A stretch of DNA of 64,000 nucleotides from Saprolegnia diclina VS20. Taxonomy: Eukaryota > Oomycota > Saprolegniomycetes > Saprolegniales > Saprolegniaceae. A program made the position numbers and the translations under genes. Below are positions 38,690-47,667 of the stretch, in pieces; the first letter of the stretch is position 1; each line of letters starts with the position of its first letter. The stretch lies in the NCBI RefSeq assembly GCF_000281045.1, contig NW_008246081.1, forward strand, positions 1,991 through 65,990. The letters run 5' to 3'. Under the pieces are notes generated by a model. The model saw only the letters and a list, made by a program, of their open reading frames with translations. It made no database searches and had not been told where the DNA came from.

Positions 38690-40120
38690 ATGGAGAAGCA
38701 GCTCCTGGTCCGGCTCGAGCAAGCATGGAGCTCGTCGGACGTCGGCGCGTTCTTGGACGCGCCCAAGCTCACGGAGATCATGCCTCACTTCAGCCTCATG
38801 GAGCCAAGCGCGAAGGTCCGCCTCCTCATGGCACTCCAGGTCGCCCAGCAGGAGCTCATGCGCCAGCACCTGTCGCGCGAGCGCCACTTGAACCCGCAGG
38901 CATCGTCGGGCGGCGTCGTGACCTCTGCCGGCCTGCCAATGCACCTTCTGAAGCAGATCTTGGCTCTTGCCGACTCGGACGCGGACGAATGGGTCAAAAT
39001 TGGCTCCGGGCTCGTGCGCAAAATGCTCTTTCCGGCAGTGGGCACCGAGAGCGACTTCTTCAACGACTACATGGCGTCGACGCTCAAGCAGGTGCTCGGC
39101 AAGGTTGACGCGTACCGCGGCGCCGACCTCGCGATCGACGACTGGTTCTCCCACGACCTCGCGTACTTGAACGCCGACCACCCCAAGGTCGCGAAGGGCT
39201 TCAAGACGTCGAACGATCACTTTACTGTCGTCGAAGAAAGCAAAAAGACTGCCGAAGACAAGCCCGCAGTGTCATCGCAGGCGTCACGCCAGGTGATGGC
39301 CAACCGGCGACCAGTGTCCGTCGCGACGGGGCCAGGCGCGCCAGCACCCAAGGCGCCCAAGCCCTCCGTCACGCCAACGTCCGCGATCAACGCGGGGCTT
39401 TCAAAGCGGTCGCTGACAGACATGGGCTCAGAGATCCGTCGTCAAGCCGAGTCGGGCCGCTTCAAACGGCAGCGCAACCGCATCTCAATGATCGACATTG
39501 ACGAGGTCAAGCAGATCGAGTCCGAGAAGGCGCAGAAAGCCGAAGAACGGAAGCAGCAAGCGCGACGGGCCAACAAAGCAGCGTCAGCCTCGGCGACCGA
39601 TGCCAACGCATCCGAAGCCGCGGGCGGTGAAGGCGGTGGCGACGGCGAGGCCATTGGCGACGGCGACGACGCCGCTAACGAGCAGCTCGCAGAGACAGAG
39701 GTGCCAGATGTGGCGACCTACGAAGCCAGCAACAGCCTCTCGGAGGTTGCCGAGGTCATGCAGAACTACCAAGACTACAACCAGCTCATGCAGTACGACA
39801 TGTCGGGGAACGAGTCGTTTGTCGTGCAAGAAGGTCTGCACCACTACGATCAGAACAGCAGCCAAGCCGGCATGTACCAGCGGCAACAACAAGTGCAGCA
39901 GCAAGGGCAACAAGCTCCGCCTTTCCCAGAGCCCATCTCGTATGGCCAGTACATGGACCCGGCGCAGCCAGGCTACAACAATGGCGCCATGTCCAACTAC
40001 GAAGAGGCTCGTGCGGCGCTGCTCCAAATGCAGCAAAGCGGCAACCCAAACAACGCCAACAGCAGCGACTCGTACCAGTACAACGGCGGCTTTATCGACT
40101 CGGCCAACTACTGGCGCTAA
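38690..40120 (+). CDS. NELF-A-like protein (candidate negative elongation factor subunit A)
   Basis: A single exon of 476 residues. The N-terminal about 130 residues are helical: KLTEIMPHFSLMEPSAKVRLL, LMALQVAQQELM, LLKQILALADSDADEWVKIG and LVRKMLF. This order resembles the HDAg-like N-terminal domain of NELF-A, where a VKLKLL segment is followed by an ASLDSDPWVLMVADIL segment. A middle basic segment, KRQRNRISMIDIDEVKQIESEK, recalls the NELF-A LLDISELD region. The rest is low complexity, Ala/Gly/Asp then Gln/Asn/Tyr-rich (QRQQQVQQQGQQ), ending SANYWR. NELF pauses RNA polymerase II and is released by CDK9. I base the assignment on eye-level similarity only. An alternative is an unrelated disordered nuclear protein. 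Confidence 0.5.
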   Translation: MEKQLLVRLEQAWSSSDVGAFLDAPKLTEIMPHFSLMEPSAKVRLLMALQVAQQELMRQHLSRERHLNPQASSGGVVTSAGLPMHLLKQILALADSDADEWVKIGSGLVRKMLFPAVGTESDFFNDYMASTLKQVLGKVDAYRGADLAIDDWFSHDLAYLNADHPKVAKGFKTSNDHFTVVEESKKTAEDKPAVSSQASRQVMANRRPVSVATGPGAPAPKAPKPSVTPTSAINAGLSKRSLTDMGSEIRRQAESGRFKRQRNRISMIDIDEVKQIESEKAQKAEERKQQARRANKAASASATDANASEAAGGEGGGDGEAIGDGDDAANEQLAETEVPDVATYEASNSLSEVAEVMQNYQDYNQLMQYDMSGNESFVVQEGLHHYDQNSSQAGMYQRQQQVQQQGQQAPPFPEPISYGQYMDPAQPGYNNGAMSNYEEARAALLQMQQSGNPNNANSSDSYQYNGGFIDSANYWR

Positions 40121-40718: not shown

Positions 40719-41210
40719 GTCGTCTACGCCACTCACTTCTTATTGCGCGTCCTATCTGCGCGCAGAAGGTGTACCAAAGCCGTACTTGATCCAGACAAAC
40801 ATCGCGCGGTATGAGCGGTTTCGCATGCAACTGATCCGGTTCACACAACCGGCTCGGTCCAACCGGTTTGCATCAATCAGGGGTAGGTGAGCCGGGTTGA
40901 ACGTTCGGCACGAATCTTTGGTATTTAAAAAACGGTACCACACAGGACATACAATTAGCTAGCTTAAATCTGCCACAATGGATTAAAATACGCACTAGTC
41001 ACTACATGCGTCAGTTGCGCACCACCTCACATTGGGTGGCGGGGACACAGAACGCCCGCTGATTGGCCAAGACTTAAATCGACGAACCAATCGTGTCGCG
41101 AGGCGTCCCTTCGATTTTTTGATTGGGATGCACTTTTGAATTTGCTCCAAGCTGCACAAGGTACCGTGATGCATTCGATGCAGTAGGAAGGGTAGTGAGA
41201 GATAGACTTT
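40719..41210. promoter_or_regulatory. Intergenic region upstream of the THI5 leader
   Basis: It probably holds the THI5 promoter. GATTGGCCAAG near 41059 and CCAATCG near 41088 lie 120-150 bp before the first aptamer. CCGGTT-type repeats occur at 40836-40870. No gene is supported, apart from a possible first exon of the small coiled-coil gene near 40830. Confidence 0.4.
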
Positions 41211-41334
41211 GAGCTGCGGGGGGTGCCTGCGGAGTGTCGTCCCATGCGAACGCATGACTATGGCGATCATTCCAGGGCTGAGATTATACCCTTTACACCT
41301 GATCCGGTTCGTACCGGCGGAGGGACAGCAGCTC
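41211..41334 (+). promoter_or_regulatory. TPP riboswitch aptamer 1 (THI element)
   Basis: P1 is GAGCTGC (41211-41217) pairing with GCAGCTC (41328-41334), a perfect 7 bp. GGGT (41221-41224) pairs with ACCC (41288-41291) as P2. An extended P3 arm follows (CTG..GGAGTG..TCG with CGA..CATTCCAG), capped by an ATGCGAACGCAT hairpin. The pyrimidine-binding CTGAGA is at 41278-41283. P4 is ACCTGATC (41297-41304), and P5 is CCGG/CCGG closing a 6-nt loop (41304-41317). The return strand GCGGAGGGA completes the pyrophosphate pocket. All conserved segments are in the canonical order. The long P3 is typical of eukaryotic aptamers. Confidence 0.94.
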
Positions 41335-41588
41335 CGAGAAGTGAATATGTTAACCAGCGAGGGGTGCTTGTGGAGTGTCGTCCCAGAGAGACTGTCTTTG
41401 TGGGTATGGCGATCATTCCAGGGCTGAGATCATACCCTTTCTACCTGATCCGGTTCGTACCGGCGGAGGGACTGCTGTGTACTAAAAGAGTGAGAGCTAA
41501 TATGTATGTGTGCTCGCCCCCAGATCCAACCCACGACGTACGTACTACGCGTATCGTGTGGTGTGCGCTAACCGCGGCGATGTGTTGA
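41244..41588 (+). promoter_or_regulatory. Upstream ORF through both aptamers, with alternative splice sites
   Basis: An ATG inside aptamer 1 (41244) opens an uninterrupted frame of 114 codons that passes through both aptamers. It stops at 41586-41588, 16 nt before the THI5 start codon at 41605. Candidate donors GTATGT (41504) and GTACGT (41538) and the acceptor CTTGCAG ending at 41597 define introns of 94 or 60 bp, and GTACC also occurs in the P5 loop of both aptamers. Unspliced RNA would present the uORF and block THI5 translation. Splicing, especially from a donor within the aptamers, would remove it. This parallels fungal NMT1 control but is inferred. Confidence 0.6.
41355..41477 (+). promoter_or_regulatory. 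TPP riboswitch aptamer 2 (THI element), tandem copy
   Basis: It begins 20 nt after aptamer 1. P1 is CAGCG (41355-41359) with TGCTG (41473-41477), including one G-U pair. The GGGGTGC start, CTGAGA (41424-41429), ACCTGATC (41443-41450), P5 CCGG/CCGG (41450-41463) and GCGGAGGGA are all present. The P3 inner stem is the same as in aptamer 1, but the apical hairpin differs in sequence (CCCA..AGAGAC / TCTTT..TGGG) while still pairing. That pattern fits selection on structure. The aptamer ends 127 nt before the THI5 start codon. Confidence 0.94.
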
Positions 41589-41604
41589 TACTTGCAGGAC
41601 CACC

Positions 41605-42651
41605 ATGGCCCCCAGCGCTCCGCTCAAGAAGACCACGTTCCTCCTCAACTGGTACGCCAACCCGTACCACACGCCCATCTTCGTCGCCAAGAAGCGCGGC
41701 TTTTACGAAGAAGAAGGCATCGACCTCGCCATCATGGAGACGACCAACCCCAGCGACGTGACTGAGATCGTCGGCTCGGGCGCCGCCGACATGGGCCTCA
41801 AGGCGATGATCCACATCCTCGCCGCCAAGGATCGTGGCATCAACATTACGTCCATGGGTGCGCTCCTCGACGAGCCCCCGACCGGCCTCATCTTCAAGGC
41901 CAGCCTCGGCATCACCAAGTTCACCGACATCGTCGGGAAGCGCGTCGGCTACATCGGCCACTTTGGCAAGATCATGATCGACGACTTGGCCAAGCAGGCC
42001 GGCCTCGCGCCGGACAGCTACACCACCGTGCGCGTCGGCATGAACGTGACGGACGCCATCATGCGCGGCGTCATCGACACGGGCATCGGCTTCACCAACT
42101 TCCAGCGCCTCGAGCTCGAGGAGCTCACGGGCGAGCCGGCGGGCATGCTGCGCATCGACGAGTGCAACGGTCTCGGCTGCTGCTGCTTCTGCTCTGTCAT
42201 GTTTGTCGCGAGCGACGCGTACTTCCAGAAGAACAAGGACACGGTCGCGGCCTTTCTGCGCGCGACGCGCCGCGCGATGGACATCGTGATCGAGTACCCG
42301 GACGTCGCGTGGGAGGACATGTGCATCATGAACCCGCGCCTCCGCTCCACCAAGCGCATGGTCAACGTCGAGGTCGAGGTCGACGGCAAGAAGGCCACTG
42401 CGCGCGTCGAGACGGGCAGCGACGTCTACGAGAAGATCTACCAGCGCACGCTGCCGTACTTTTCGCGCACGCTCCTCAACGTCGAGCGCGACTGGGCCAA
42501 GGTCGGCGACTTCTGCAAGTACCTCCACGTGCTCGAGAACGAGGTCGACCAGCACACGGTCTACTCGAACGAGCTCGTGCCCGCCATGGGCAAGGCGTCC
42601 GTCGAGCCGCTCACGCCGGGTGGCGTCCTCGGCCTCGTCTCGCAGCAGTAA
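41605..42651 (+). CDS. THI5: HMP-P synthase, THI5/NMT1 family
   Basis: A 348-residue single-exon protein close to yeast THI5 length (340). It makes the thiamine pyrimidine HMP-P from PLP and an active-site histidine in a single-turnover, iron-dependent reaction. Visible are LLNWYANPYHTPIFVAKKRGFY (substrate-fold start), the PLP lysine and donor histidine in GLKAMIH (K66, H70; four apart as K62/H66 in yeast), GKRVGYIGHFG, and the metal-binding CCCFC at residues 192-196 within CNGLGCCCFCSVMF. All catalytic features are intact. It sits directly downstream of two TPP aptamers, so end-product control is expected. Codon use matches neighbouring genes, so any transfer is not recent. Confidence 0.96.
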   Translation: MAPSAPLKKTTFLLNWYANPYHTPIFVAKKRGFYEEEGIDLAIMETTNPSDVTEIVGSGAADMGLKAMIHILAAKDRGINITSMGALLDEPPTGLIFKASLGITKFTDIVGKRVGYIGHFGKIMIDDLAKQAGLAPDSYTTVRVGMNVTDAIMRGVIDTGIGFTNFQRLELEELTGEPAGMLRIDECNGLGCCCFCSVMFVASDAYFQKNKDTVAAFLRATRRAMDIVIEYPDVAWEDMCIMNPRLRSTKRMVNVEVEVDGKKATARVETGSDVYEKIYQRTLPYFSRTLLNVERDWAKVGDFCKYLHVLENEVDQHTVYSNELVPAMGKASVEPLTPGGVLGLVSQQ

Positions 42652-42880
42652 AACGCTCCTTGGCGCCGCCTTTAACGCGATGAATCCAATTCTACGTCGT
42701 GTTGGGCCCTTGTCATTCCAGTGGTTACGACTAGCAGCAATAAGATCTCAATGACCTTGGATAGCAGGCATGGCGTAGTAGAGTTCCGGCCACACCAAGT
42801 CCTTTGATGAAGATAGATAACGTCATATTCTTCAGTAGGACGCGCTAGGCTGCAAAAGAAATCCAGCTTGGGCAGCAGCT

Positions 42881-45455: not shown

Positions 45456-46592
45456 CTAAGGGAACGTGGGCATGAGCTCGACGGGCTTGCACGCCGGTGC
45501 TTCGCTAAAGTACTCGTGTTGGAGCGCATCGGCGGCCGAGATACGCTGGTTTGGGTCGAGCGTCAAGAGCCGCTGCATCAAGTCAAACCCGGCGTTCGAG
45601 AGCGCGCTCTGACCGTACGTGAGGCTCGCGACAGGGAACTTCTCGCGCAGCACCGACCGCTTCGGGCCCTTCCACTTGACGTTGGCGACGTTTGGGAGGT
45701 CCGTGACACCCGGCCAGTTTTCTTCAGTCGGCGGCCCGAGGAGCTTAAATATTTGGTCGAGCTGGTCAATCTCGCCGCGCCCCATGAGGAGCGGCTTCAT
45801 CAAGACAAGCTCTGCGAAGATGCACCCGACAGACCACATGTCTACCGCAGTCGAGTACGACGACGTGCCAAGGAGGAGCTCTGGTGCGCGGTACCACAGC
45901 GTCACGACGAGGAGCGTGTAGTTGCGGATCGGCGACCCGTACTTTCTGGCCATGCCAAAGTCGCAGACCTTAAGGACGCCGTCGTCGTAGAGCAAGTTGC
46001 TGCTCTTGAGGTCGCGGTGAATGTACCACTTGCCGTGCATGTAGGCCATGGCCGAGAGGAGCTGGCGCAGCAGCGTCTTGATCTCAGACTGCAGGAACGG
46101 GTGGTTCTCGGCCTTCTTCTTCTCGAGCACGTGCTTCAAGTCCTTCGTCGCGTAGTCCATGACCATGTAGATCTTGTCGGGCGTCGACCCGACCACCATC
46201 TCGCGCATGCGCACGATATTCGGGTGGTCAAGCGCGAGGAGGATGTTGGTTTCCCGCAGCGCCGTCACCGGAAAGCCTTCCCGGCACATGTCCACGGTCA
46301 TCTTGACCTGCTTGAGCGCTACGATGTCGCCCGTCGCCTTGTCCCGCGCCTTGGACACGACGCCGTACGTGCCTTCGTCGATCTTGCCGATGCGCGCGTA
46401 GTTGTCGACGCCCCGACAGCGCGGCCGGCCCTTGGTCGCCCGCCGACCAGCGTCCGACGTCACGGCGTCGACTGCTGGCGCTACGTCGCTGGACTTGATC
46501 TCCTTGACGTCGACCTCGGTCTCGCGCCTGCTTCCCGCCCGGCGGTCGCTCTTGTCGTCCTCGTCGTCGCTGCTCCAGCGATTGCGCTTCAT
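45456..46592 (-). CDS. CDK11: Cyclin-dependent kinase 11 (PITSLRE type)
   Basis: A single exon. I take MKRNRWSSDDEDDKSD at 46592 as the start; the ORF extends 14 codons further. A short charged N-terminus (about 65 residues, far shorter than in animals) leads to CRGVDNYARIGKIDEGTYGVV, where the CR-SV-like lead-in and GKIDEGTYG are CDK10/11 traits. Also visible are VALKQVKM, the cyclin helix PVTALRETNIL (PITSLRE variant), VVGSTPDKIYMVMDY, HRDLKSSNLL, CDFGMARKYGSP, VVTLWYRAPELLLG, EIDQLDQIFKLLG and QRISAADALQHEYF. CDK11 acts in transcription and spliceosome activation. The plus-strand ORF opposite it is a shadow. Confidence 0.93.
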   Translation of the reverse strand: MKRNRWSSDDEDDKSDRRAGSRRETEVDVKEIKSSDVAPAVDAVTSDAGRRATKGRPRCRGVDNYARIGKIDEGTYGVVSKARDKATGDIVALKQVKMTVDMCREGFPVTALRETNILLALDHPNIVRMREMVVGSTPDKIYMVMDYATKDLKHVLEKKKAENHPFLQSEIKTLLRQLLSAMAYMHGKWYIHRDLKSSNLLYDDGVLKVCDFGMARKYGSPIRNYTLLVVTLWYRAPELLLGTSSYSTAVDMWSVGCIFAELVLMKPLLMGRGEIDQLDQIFKLLGPPTEENWPGVTDLPNVANVKWKGPKRSVLREKFPVASLTYGQSALSNAGFDLMQRLLTLDPNQRISAADALQHEYFSEAPACKPVELMPTFP

Positions 46593-47667
46593 GATGGGCG
46601 ACCCAATCCTTTGAAATGCGATCGAATCCAACAAAATCAGTTTTCAGAGGCATTTGGATTCGGCATGCATGCCGAATGTAGCACCCGTGAAAGCGGCCGA
46701 AGGGTTGAAGCTGACCGGATGCAGCTCTCGGCAACAGCCACCTGCGAGCTTTATGGCGGGCTCTCAAGACGGGAACCGCTTCACAGGATTTGGTGAGCAG
46801 TCAGTAGACTGTATGAAGACACCAAGTCTCGGACGCGACAGGAGACGAAATCGTGTGGCAGTGCAGGCCGTCGGACGAACATGCGATTGGCCTTTGCTGC
46901 ACCGCGATAGACTTGCATTCATGAGCTCGTCATGCAAACGAACGCATACCGGCCGCAACGAGCAACTCAGCTGCGGCGGTGCTTCCAACACCATCAACGT
47001 AGCGGTAGCAAGCGTCTGGCGTCACCTGGCAGAGACGGTCCCTGCTTGAGCACAACCGCGCGATCGGGATCTGGGCGCGAGGGATCGGTGAAGTCATGGC
47101 GGTGAAAAGTGGTACGACAGGGATCTTGTGCATGCTTTCGCAAGGCAGTTCTTATTTGACCAAGTCACGCCCGTGGCTGTCCCTTGTCATAGCGACGAGG
47201 CTGCCAATCAAGGCGCGGGAAAGAGACGCCGACAGGAATAATGACCAATCCCGCGGCGTGGATCCTGATGTGGCCAATCAGCGCGCGATCTTTTGGGAAA
47301 TGACCTCCTTACGTGGCAGCCACGGCGGCGATGACAGGTGACCTGGCCACCCACTTGACCTTGCCGTTTGTATTGAACTTGGGACTTTCAACAAAGTGGC
47401 CCGGATGATGGCACCCGCGCTGCTGTTTACAAATCGCTCGTCACACTCCGCGCGGTTTGTTGCATATACACACGCACCGAATAAAAAGCGTCGCAAGTCG
47501 AATTCAAGCGTATGCAATACAATTCATCCATTTAATTCATTGTCAGAGGTTTCTCAGGCTCGCGATCGCGCCTGTTGAACGCTCCATGTGGCGCCATATT
47601 CAAAGAAAGAGGTTGCGGCGACCTCGGTGGAAAGGCCCACTTGTCAATTTTTGAGACCGAGACTGCG
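46593..47667. promoter_or_regulatory. Intergenic divergent region
   Basis: About 1.07 kb without a supported gene. It has ACCGGATG near 46713 upstream of CDK11 and CCAAT-type sites near 46890, 47201 and 47274. Short ORFs lack domains. Confidence 0.4.

Follow-up and report, generated by a model that had tools for sequence, protein, structure and literature searches.

Two tandem TPP aptamers in the THI5 leader of Saprolegnia diclina and the splicing switch they may form

An important question raised by two riboswitch aptamers of the same class in front of a single gene is whether two sensors sharpen the response of a splicing riboswitch or divide the labour between them. The leader of the thiamine gene THI5/NMT1 of the oomycete Saprolegnia diclina VS20, found within a 64,000-nucleotide stretch of DNA that was analysed as a whole (the window), poses this question for TPP. 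The architecture as such is already known, for the genus as well as for the gene: two TPP aptamers inside NMT1 5'UTR introns of the genus Saprolegnia, possibly including this very locus, were reported by Mukherjee et al. (2018, PMC5882874). There, the pair clustered in a neighbour-joining tree, which was read as a duplication, and a mechanism was not inferable. The view of the initial annotation that a two-aptamer switch in a stramenopile would be a new architecture was thus anticipated in 2018. Its statement that known eukaryotic TPP riboswitches are all single does not hold either, since in Micromonas clade D the same gene or genes carry riboswitches at either end, in the 5' UTR and also in the 3' UTR (McRose et al. 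2014, PMC4260697). In bacteria, 213 TPP representatives stand in tandem with another of their class (Sherlock et al. 2022, PMC9481103). The literature searched, with most subscription papers outside it, yielded neither a later treatment of the Saprolegnia pair nor a second eukaryotic leader with TPP aptamers side by side. As the only adjacent eukaryotic pair found, it is therefore a natural place to ask about splicing control by two sensors, and with named isoforms, named donors and a competitor helix of 12 pairs the question of mechanism becomes concretely testable.

Two aptamers, their gene and their kinship

Scanned against Rfam 15 at the gathering threshold (cmscan), the whole window gave two matches, both to RF00059, both on the plus strand and both spanning the full model length (1-105). 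Aptamer 1 (41209-41343, P1 stem from 41211 to 41333/41334) scores 56.3 bits (E 2.3e-8) and aptamer 2 (41350-41489, P1 stem from about 41353 to about 41480) 58.6 bits (E 6.5e-9), with non-standard pairs marked in 8 and 6 alignment columns, respectively. Two complete aptamers in the same orientation had been annotated initially, and both do pass the RF00059 threshold of 54.3 bits, but by 2.0 and 4.3 bits rather than by the wide margin that had been expected. A scan at E<=1 added no further RNA family in 41000-42700.

The anatomy of the two copies agrees largely with what had been described. CTGAGA, ACCTGATC and GGAGGGA are each found in both, P1 to P5 are able to pair, and P1 of aptamer 1 is indeed a perfect 7-bp stem (GAGCUGC/GCAGCUC), whereas that of aptamer 2 is shorter and interrupted. 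The apical P3 regions differ in sequence and fold as a hairpin in each copy; that pairing was kept despite divergence, as had been claimed, is strongly indicated for aptamer 2 (41377-41413; 0/200 shuffles fold as well or better) and weakly for aptamer 1 (41236-41266; 13/200). Folded alone, aptamer 1 as a whole reaches -50.6 kcal/mol (z -2.16, 6/200 shuffles as good) and aptamer 2 reaches -49.4 kcal/mol (z -1.12, 26/200 as good). By their sequence, these are two complete TPP aptamers preceding THI5/NMT1.

The coding sequence of this gene (HMP-P synthase, 348 aa, 41605-42651, plus strand; PF09084, 222.9 bits) begins 127 nt after position 41477, at the distance given initially. Its product is 100% identical across 348 aa to S. 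diclina VS20 SDRG_05281 (P0001, 361 aa), in line with the oomycete origin that had been proposed, and has a single match in the genome. In NCBIfam, no THI5 model came above its cut-off, the best match being an ABC substrate-binding subfamily (51.2 vs 163.5).

Searched with the Rfam model or with a core pattern that tolerates up to 3 mismatches, the 54.15-Mb assembly shows TPP aptamers at the same three places, i.e. the THI5 pair and one before THI4 (PF01946, 348.5 bits; L002, minus strand), and a thiamine metabolism gene thus follows both aptamer loci. The reversed core pattern matched nowhere, which excludes chance. With 49 of 838 candidates scored by the Rfam model and parts of the assembly reading N, this count is not strictly exhaustive. 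The THI4 aptamer (L002:1501-1650, minus strand) is single and has a long P3 as well as P1 arms identical to those of THI5 aptamer 2; its leader contains candidate donors GTGCGG (L002 1756) and GTAGTG (L002 1702) and an acceptor ending at L002 1474/1475.

The THI5 pair bears the marks of a tandem duplication. Aptamers 1 and 2 are identical at 11/13 positions of the P1-P2 5' strand, 43/56 aligned columns of P3, 50/56 of the 3' core and 11/22 of the 3' flank, and it is the similarity in P3 that points to tandem duplicates. In the P1-P2 5' strand, P3 and 3' core, the THI4 copy matches aptamer 2 at 13/13, 37/67 and 50/56 and aptamer 1 at 11/13, 37/71 and 47/56. Judging from these comparisons, aptamer 2 kept the P1 arms common to THI4, and aptamer 1 has a different P1, the perfect one. 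The contrast between a conserved 3' core and diverged flanks appears to be a stronger argument for the upkeep of both copies than the pairing in P3.

The surroundings of the locus offered a few observations of their own. Viral contigs, scanned for THI5, yielded no relative. Among the 120 relatives listed for the oomycete THI5, many are bacterial at 51-56% identity (Legionella and its kin), and Chromera velia stands at 69%; how the enzyme spread between protists and bacteria would merit a tree. The neighbouring protein encoded at 38690-40120 (plus strand) has no Pfam match. PF23553, the N-terminal domain of NELF-A, is present in its oomycete relatives, and the closest named relative, at 70%, is an Achlya hypogyna protein. 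Downstream of THI5, on the opposite strand, lies a protein kinase gene (45456-46634, minus strand; PF00069, 218.5 bits).

Splicing anatomy of the leader and a putative switch

Downstream of both aptamers lies a short proximal intron (41538-41597, plus strand) with donor GTACGT at 41538 (S4), a branch-like CTAAC at 41568 and acceptor TTGCAG ending at 41597. Once it is removed, the ATG at 41506 comes into frame and the coding sequence counts exactly 361 codons, which identifies the public gene model P0001 as the proximal-donor form, with MCARPQIQPTTTT as its N-terminus ahead of the MAPS start. The public N-terminus (41506-41607, via the proximal intron) may therefore describe the repressed isoform of the switch proposed below. 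Translation from 41605, a start in strong context, gives a protein without the 13-residue extension of the 361-aa model, which starts at 41506.

The proximal intron seems typical for this genome, as far as a small sample of 190,989 readable bases can tell, which comprised the window and 20 stretches of 10 kb (10 unmasked, 5 masked in part and 5 throughout). A strict screen kept 36 intron candidates (in part overlapping variants of the same intron), among which the donor +4 position is C in 0.58 and GTACGT is the commonest hexamer (3/36). Neither branch-point-anchored counting nor a loose coding-flank screen (383 candidates) gave a clear signal for a donor consensus.

Upstream of aptamer 1, three candidate distal donors can be named from sequence alone, all of them imperfect: S0 (AAG/GTACCG, 41161-41166) and the two S1 sites GTAGTG (41192) and GTGAGA (41195), together covering 41192-41200. 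Further donor-like sites follow each aptamer, S2 (GTGAAT, 41341-41346) in the linker and S3 (GTGAGA, 41490-41495) directly after aptamer 2, with the acceptor common to both. A motif combining GCATTCGA with GTAGTG at a fixed spacing had no match, a result of little weight, as the chosen spacing fits neither THI5 nor THI4.

Donor choice would matter to the gene through upstream open reading frames (uORFs), counted here for an assumed transcript start at 41130. The unspliced leader has 10 upstream ATGs (uATGs), and every uORF ends before THI5 begins. Splicing at S4, S3 or S2 leaves 9, 7 or 5 uATGs, and 3, 2 or 3 uORFs, respectively, then run out of frame across the THI5 start. The two S1 forms contain only uORFs of 5 and 2 codons and the S0 form none. 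Thus, a short leader is obtained only with a donor upstream of aptamer 1, and all spliced forms that keep an aptamer have overlapping uORFs. One uORF runs through both aptamers (41244-41537, 98 codons up to donor S4) and after splicing at S4 comprises 153 codons in all, overlapping the THI5 start out of frame.

We consider it probable, at roughly two chances in three, that this leader is an alternative-splicing switch of fungal type, repressed by TPP, that contains two tandem-duplicated aptamers. When TPP is low, splicing would join a donor ahead of aptamer 1 to the acceptor at 41597 and so remove both aptamers together with the longer uORFs, allowing THI5 to be made. At high TPP, the proximal donor 41538 would be used, or the leader kept, and the uORFs would block THI5. 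Both aptamers, the typical proximal intron and the uORF arithmetic are established by the present analysis, and the reading draws further support from the identity of the two genes served (THI5 and THI4), from the match of the proximal intron to the 361-codon model and from the conserved cores. TPP binding itself, the choice of donor and the sign of regulation would follow known fungal THI5 switches; the uORF and donor logic corresponds to that described for Neurospora THI5 (PMC5997356, PMC5882874, PMC7404189), where the switch uses two donors and uORFs (PMC5997356, PMC5882874). The splicing control suggested in the initial annotation thus appears likely, given the proximal intron, the uORFs and this analogy.

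Two kinds of results speak against the switch. Besides the imperfect distal donors, these are the folding predictions, in which donor 41538 is hardly unpaired either in the free leader (0.07) or with both aptamers formed (0.11). The hairpin over this donor is predicted to stay whatever the aptamers do, so that masking of the Neurospora type is not supported. The S1 donors (41192/41195) are unpaired at 0.19/0.33 in the free leader and at 0.45/0.46 with both aptamers formed, i.e. predicted to be more open with the aptamers, which is the wrong sign for S1 as the productive donor. With the folding span limited to 150, the aptamers changed hardly any site; at a span of 250, donor 41192 goes from 0.42 to 0.25 unpaired when both aptamers form. 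The idea that the L5 loop shared by the two THI5 aptamers (UUCGUA; Rfam consensus UUAAUA) evolved to pair with donor GUACGU at 41538 was rejected: in a control pattern scan of bacterial and archaeal contigs, the same loop occurred in 21 of the 119 bacterial TPP-like matches listed (16/80 as first counted), and this pairing is not used in the folds.

A candidate moving part and the roles of two sensors

When the stretch 41150-41208 was compared with the aptamers, a candidate competitor strand emerged, alpha (GUAGGAAGGGUA, 41183-41194, plus strand), which could form 12 continuous pairs with alpha' (UACCCUUUCUAC, 41433-41444, plus strand), which in aptamer 2 comprises the P2' strand and the joining bases after it. 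The putative helix is gapless, includes one G-U pair, has a predicted energy of -17.2 kcal/mol and overlaps or abuts the nearest distal donors. With aptamer 1, the alpha strand forms 8 pairs (-9.6). A helix as strong arose in 3/1000 dinucleotide shuffles of the upstream stretch and in 5.2% of 1976 real GC-rich stretches of the window. Judged by length only, 12 pairs turned up in 5% of the shuffled and 6.9% of the real stretches. Since the helix was found by looking, all such fractions flatter it.

In unrestricted folds of the leader with 25 choices of ends, the alpha helix has a probability of 0.67-0.96, and P2 forms with 0.07-0.16 in aptamer 2 and 0.67-0.91 in aptamer 1; in these ligand-free folds alpha takes the place of P2 in aptamer 2, while aptamer 1 remains intact. 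Forcing the aptamers to form costs, over six settings, 0.9-1.0 kcal/mol for aptamer 1 and 6.3-12.8 kcal/mol for aptamer 2, and without the upstream strand the latter cost drops from 10.7 to 3.8. When this strand was shuffled, aptamer 2 was as costly in 3/120 cases, and its mean native pair probability was as low in 28/120. Taken together, forcing costs, fold probabilities and the effect of removing the strand predict an asymmetric pair. As the helix spans up to 262 nt, folding spans of 150 and 250 forbid it, and the alpha model therefore depends on folds without a span limit, whose reliability is lower for an RNA this long. In the THI4 leader, where forcing the aptamer costs 5.1 kcal/mol, no such helix onto P2' was among the six best. 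The single-sequence support for alpha as a competitor may be called moderate.

If alpha is the moving part, aptamer 1 would be permanently folded inside the loop of a long-range helix and aptamer 2 would be the switching element. Without TPP, the P2' strand of aptamer 2 would be held by the 12-nt alpha strand beside the distal donors; TPP would trap aptamer 2 and release alpha's grip, with aptamer 1 tuning the trapping. The sign would fit if S0 (41161) were the donor and alpha, just inside the intron, served as a bridge, which is a conjecture. This asymmetric arrangement appears rather unlikely; if it holds, a single spliceosomal decision would employ the two copies of an aptamer for separate tasks. 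By comparison, two equal and independent TPP sensors could act on one splicing choice, either of them spoiling distal splicing, such that the response becomes steeper and pseudo-cooperative. Bacterial tandem TPP riboswitches have been described in such terms (PMC9481103) and both aptamer cores are intact, but the forcing costs in the ligand-free leader are markedly unequal. Furthermore, the linker offers at most a donor-like site and a single acceptor follows the pair, which means that separate expression platforms are not evident. Equal sensors are a real possibility, yet one that we would place well below even odds.

The two copies might also reflect nothing but a recent or passive duplication, with aptamer 2, whose P1 matches THI4, at work and aptamer 1 a spare without effect. 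Their clustering as duplicates (PMC5882874) and the 43/56 identity in P3 would be expected from such a history, which is nevertheless quite improbable in view of flanks diverged to 11/22 next to a core at 50/56, and of the perfect P1 and good fold of aptamer 1 (6/200 shuffles as good). Going solely by the genus-level report of PMC5882874, the pair is not missing from close relatives either, the situation that the initial annotation had linked to non-functional duplication. Finally, the proximal intron, which is strong, local and used by the public gene model, could always be removed, with TPP acting on a retained leader by way of uORF use or access to the start, and TPP riboswitches that do not involve splicing have been proposed for single-exon fungal and algal genes (PMC5882874, PMC4260697). 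Such control by retention or translation seems unlikely to us, as leaders bearing uORFs (9 uATGs) would then exist at low TPP too and the fungal THI5 leader that has been characterised acts through the choice of donor (PMC5997356).

The Saprolegnia leader among known TPP riboswitches

The proposed switch can be set beside several known systems. It resembles the 'Type I' riboswitch of Neurospora crassa THI5/NMT1 in its 5'UTR intron, its uORFs, its alternative donors with one acceptor and its gene for the thiamine pyrimidine (PMC5882874, PMC5997356, PMC7404189). The acceptor at 41597 and the uORFs are present in Saprolegnia, and the aptamers are intronic only if one of the candidate distal donors is used. 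In contrast to the single Neurospora aptamer, which masks the proximal donor when free of ligand, no such masking appears in the Saprolegnia folds, where 41538 is predicted to lie in a local hairpin (unpaired 0.07-0.11). Among other fungal cases, a TPP intron from Candida has been placed in a splicing reporter in laboratory Saccharomyces cerevisiae (PMC5997356).

With the 'Type II' riboswitch of Neurospora NCU01977 the alpha model shares a ligand-free long-range helix that links a segment at the distal donor with one of the aptamer strands (PMC5882874). There, however, the pairing strand is P1' and the intron of 650-900 nt lies in a transporter gene, whereas alpha would pair with P2' of aptamer 2 and the bases that follow it, in a leader of about 400 nt that belongs to a biosynthesis gene; the leader thus falls outside this type. 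Like the bacterial tandem TPP riboswitches (PMC9481103), the Saprolegnia leader has two complete aptamers of the same class in a row upstream of one gene, but each bacterial aptamer has its own expression platform, whereas here the proposed output is a choice made by the spliceosome, with one acceptor. A pair of TPP riboswitches in one eukaryotic gene is also known from Micromonas clade D (PMC4260697), where they sit not side by side but at the two gene ends. The closest counterpart is the Saprolegnia pair of PMC5882874, with the same genus, gene and leader position, the same number of aptamers and the same reading as a duplication; to that account, which offers no mechanism, the present analysis adds isoforms and donors by name, together with a putative competitor strand.
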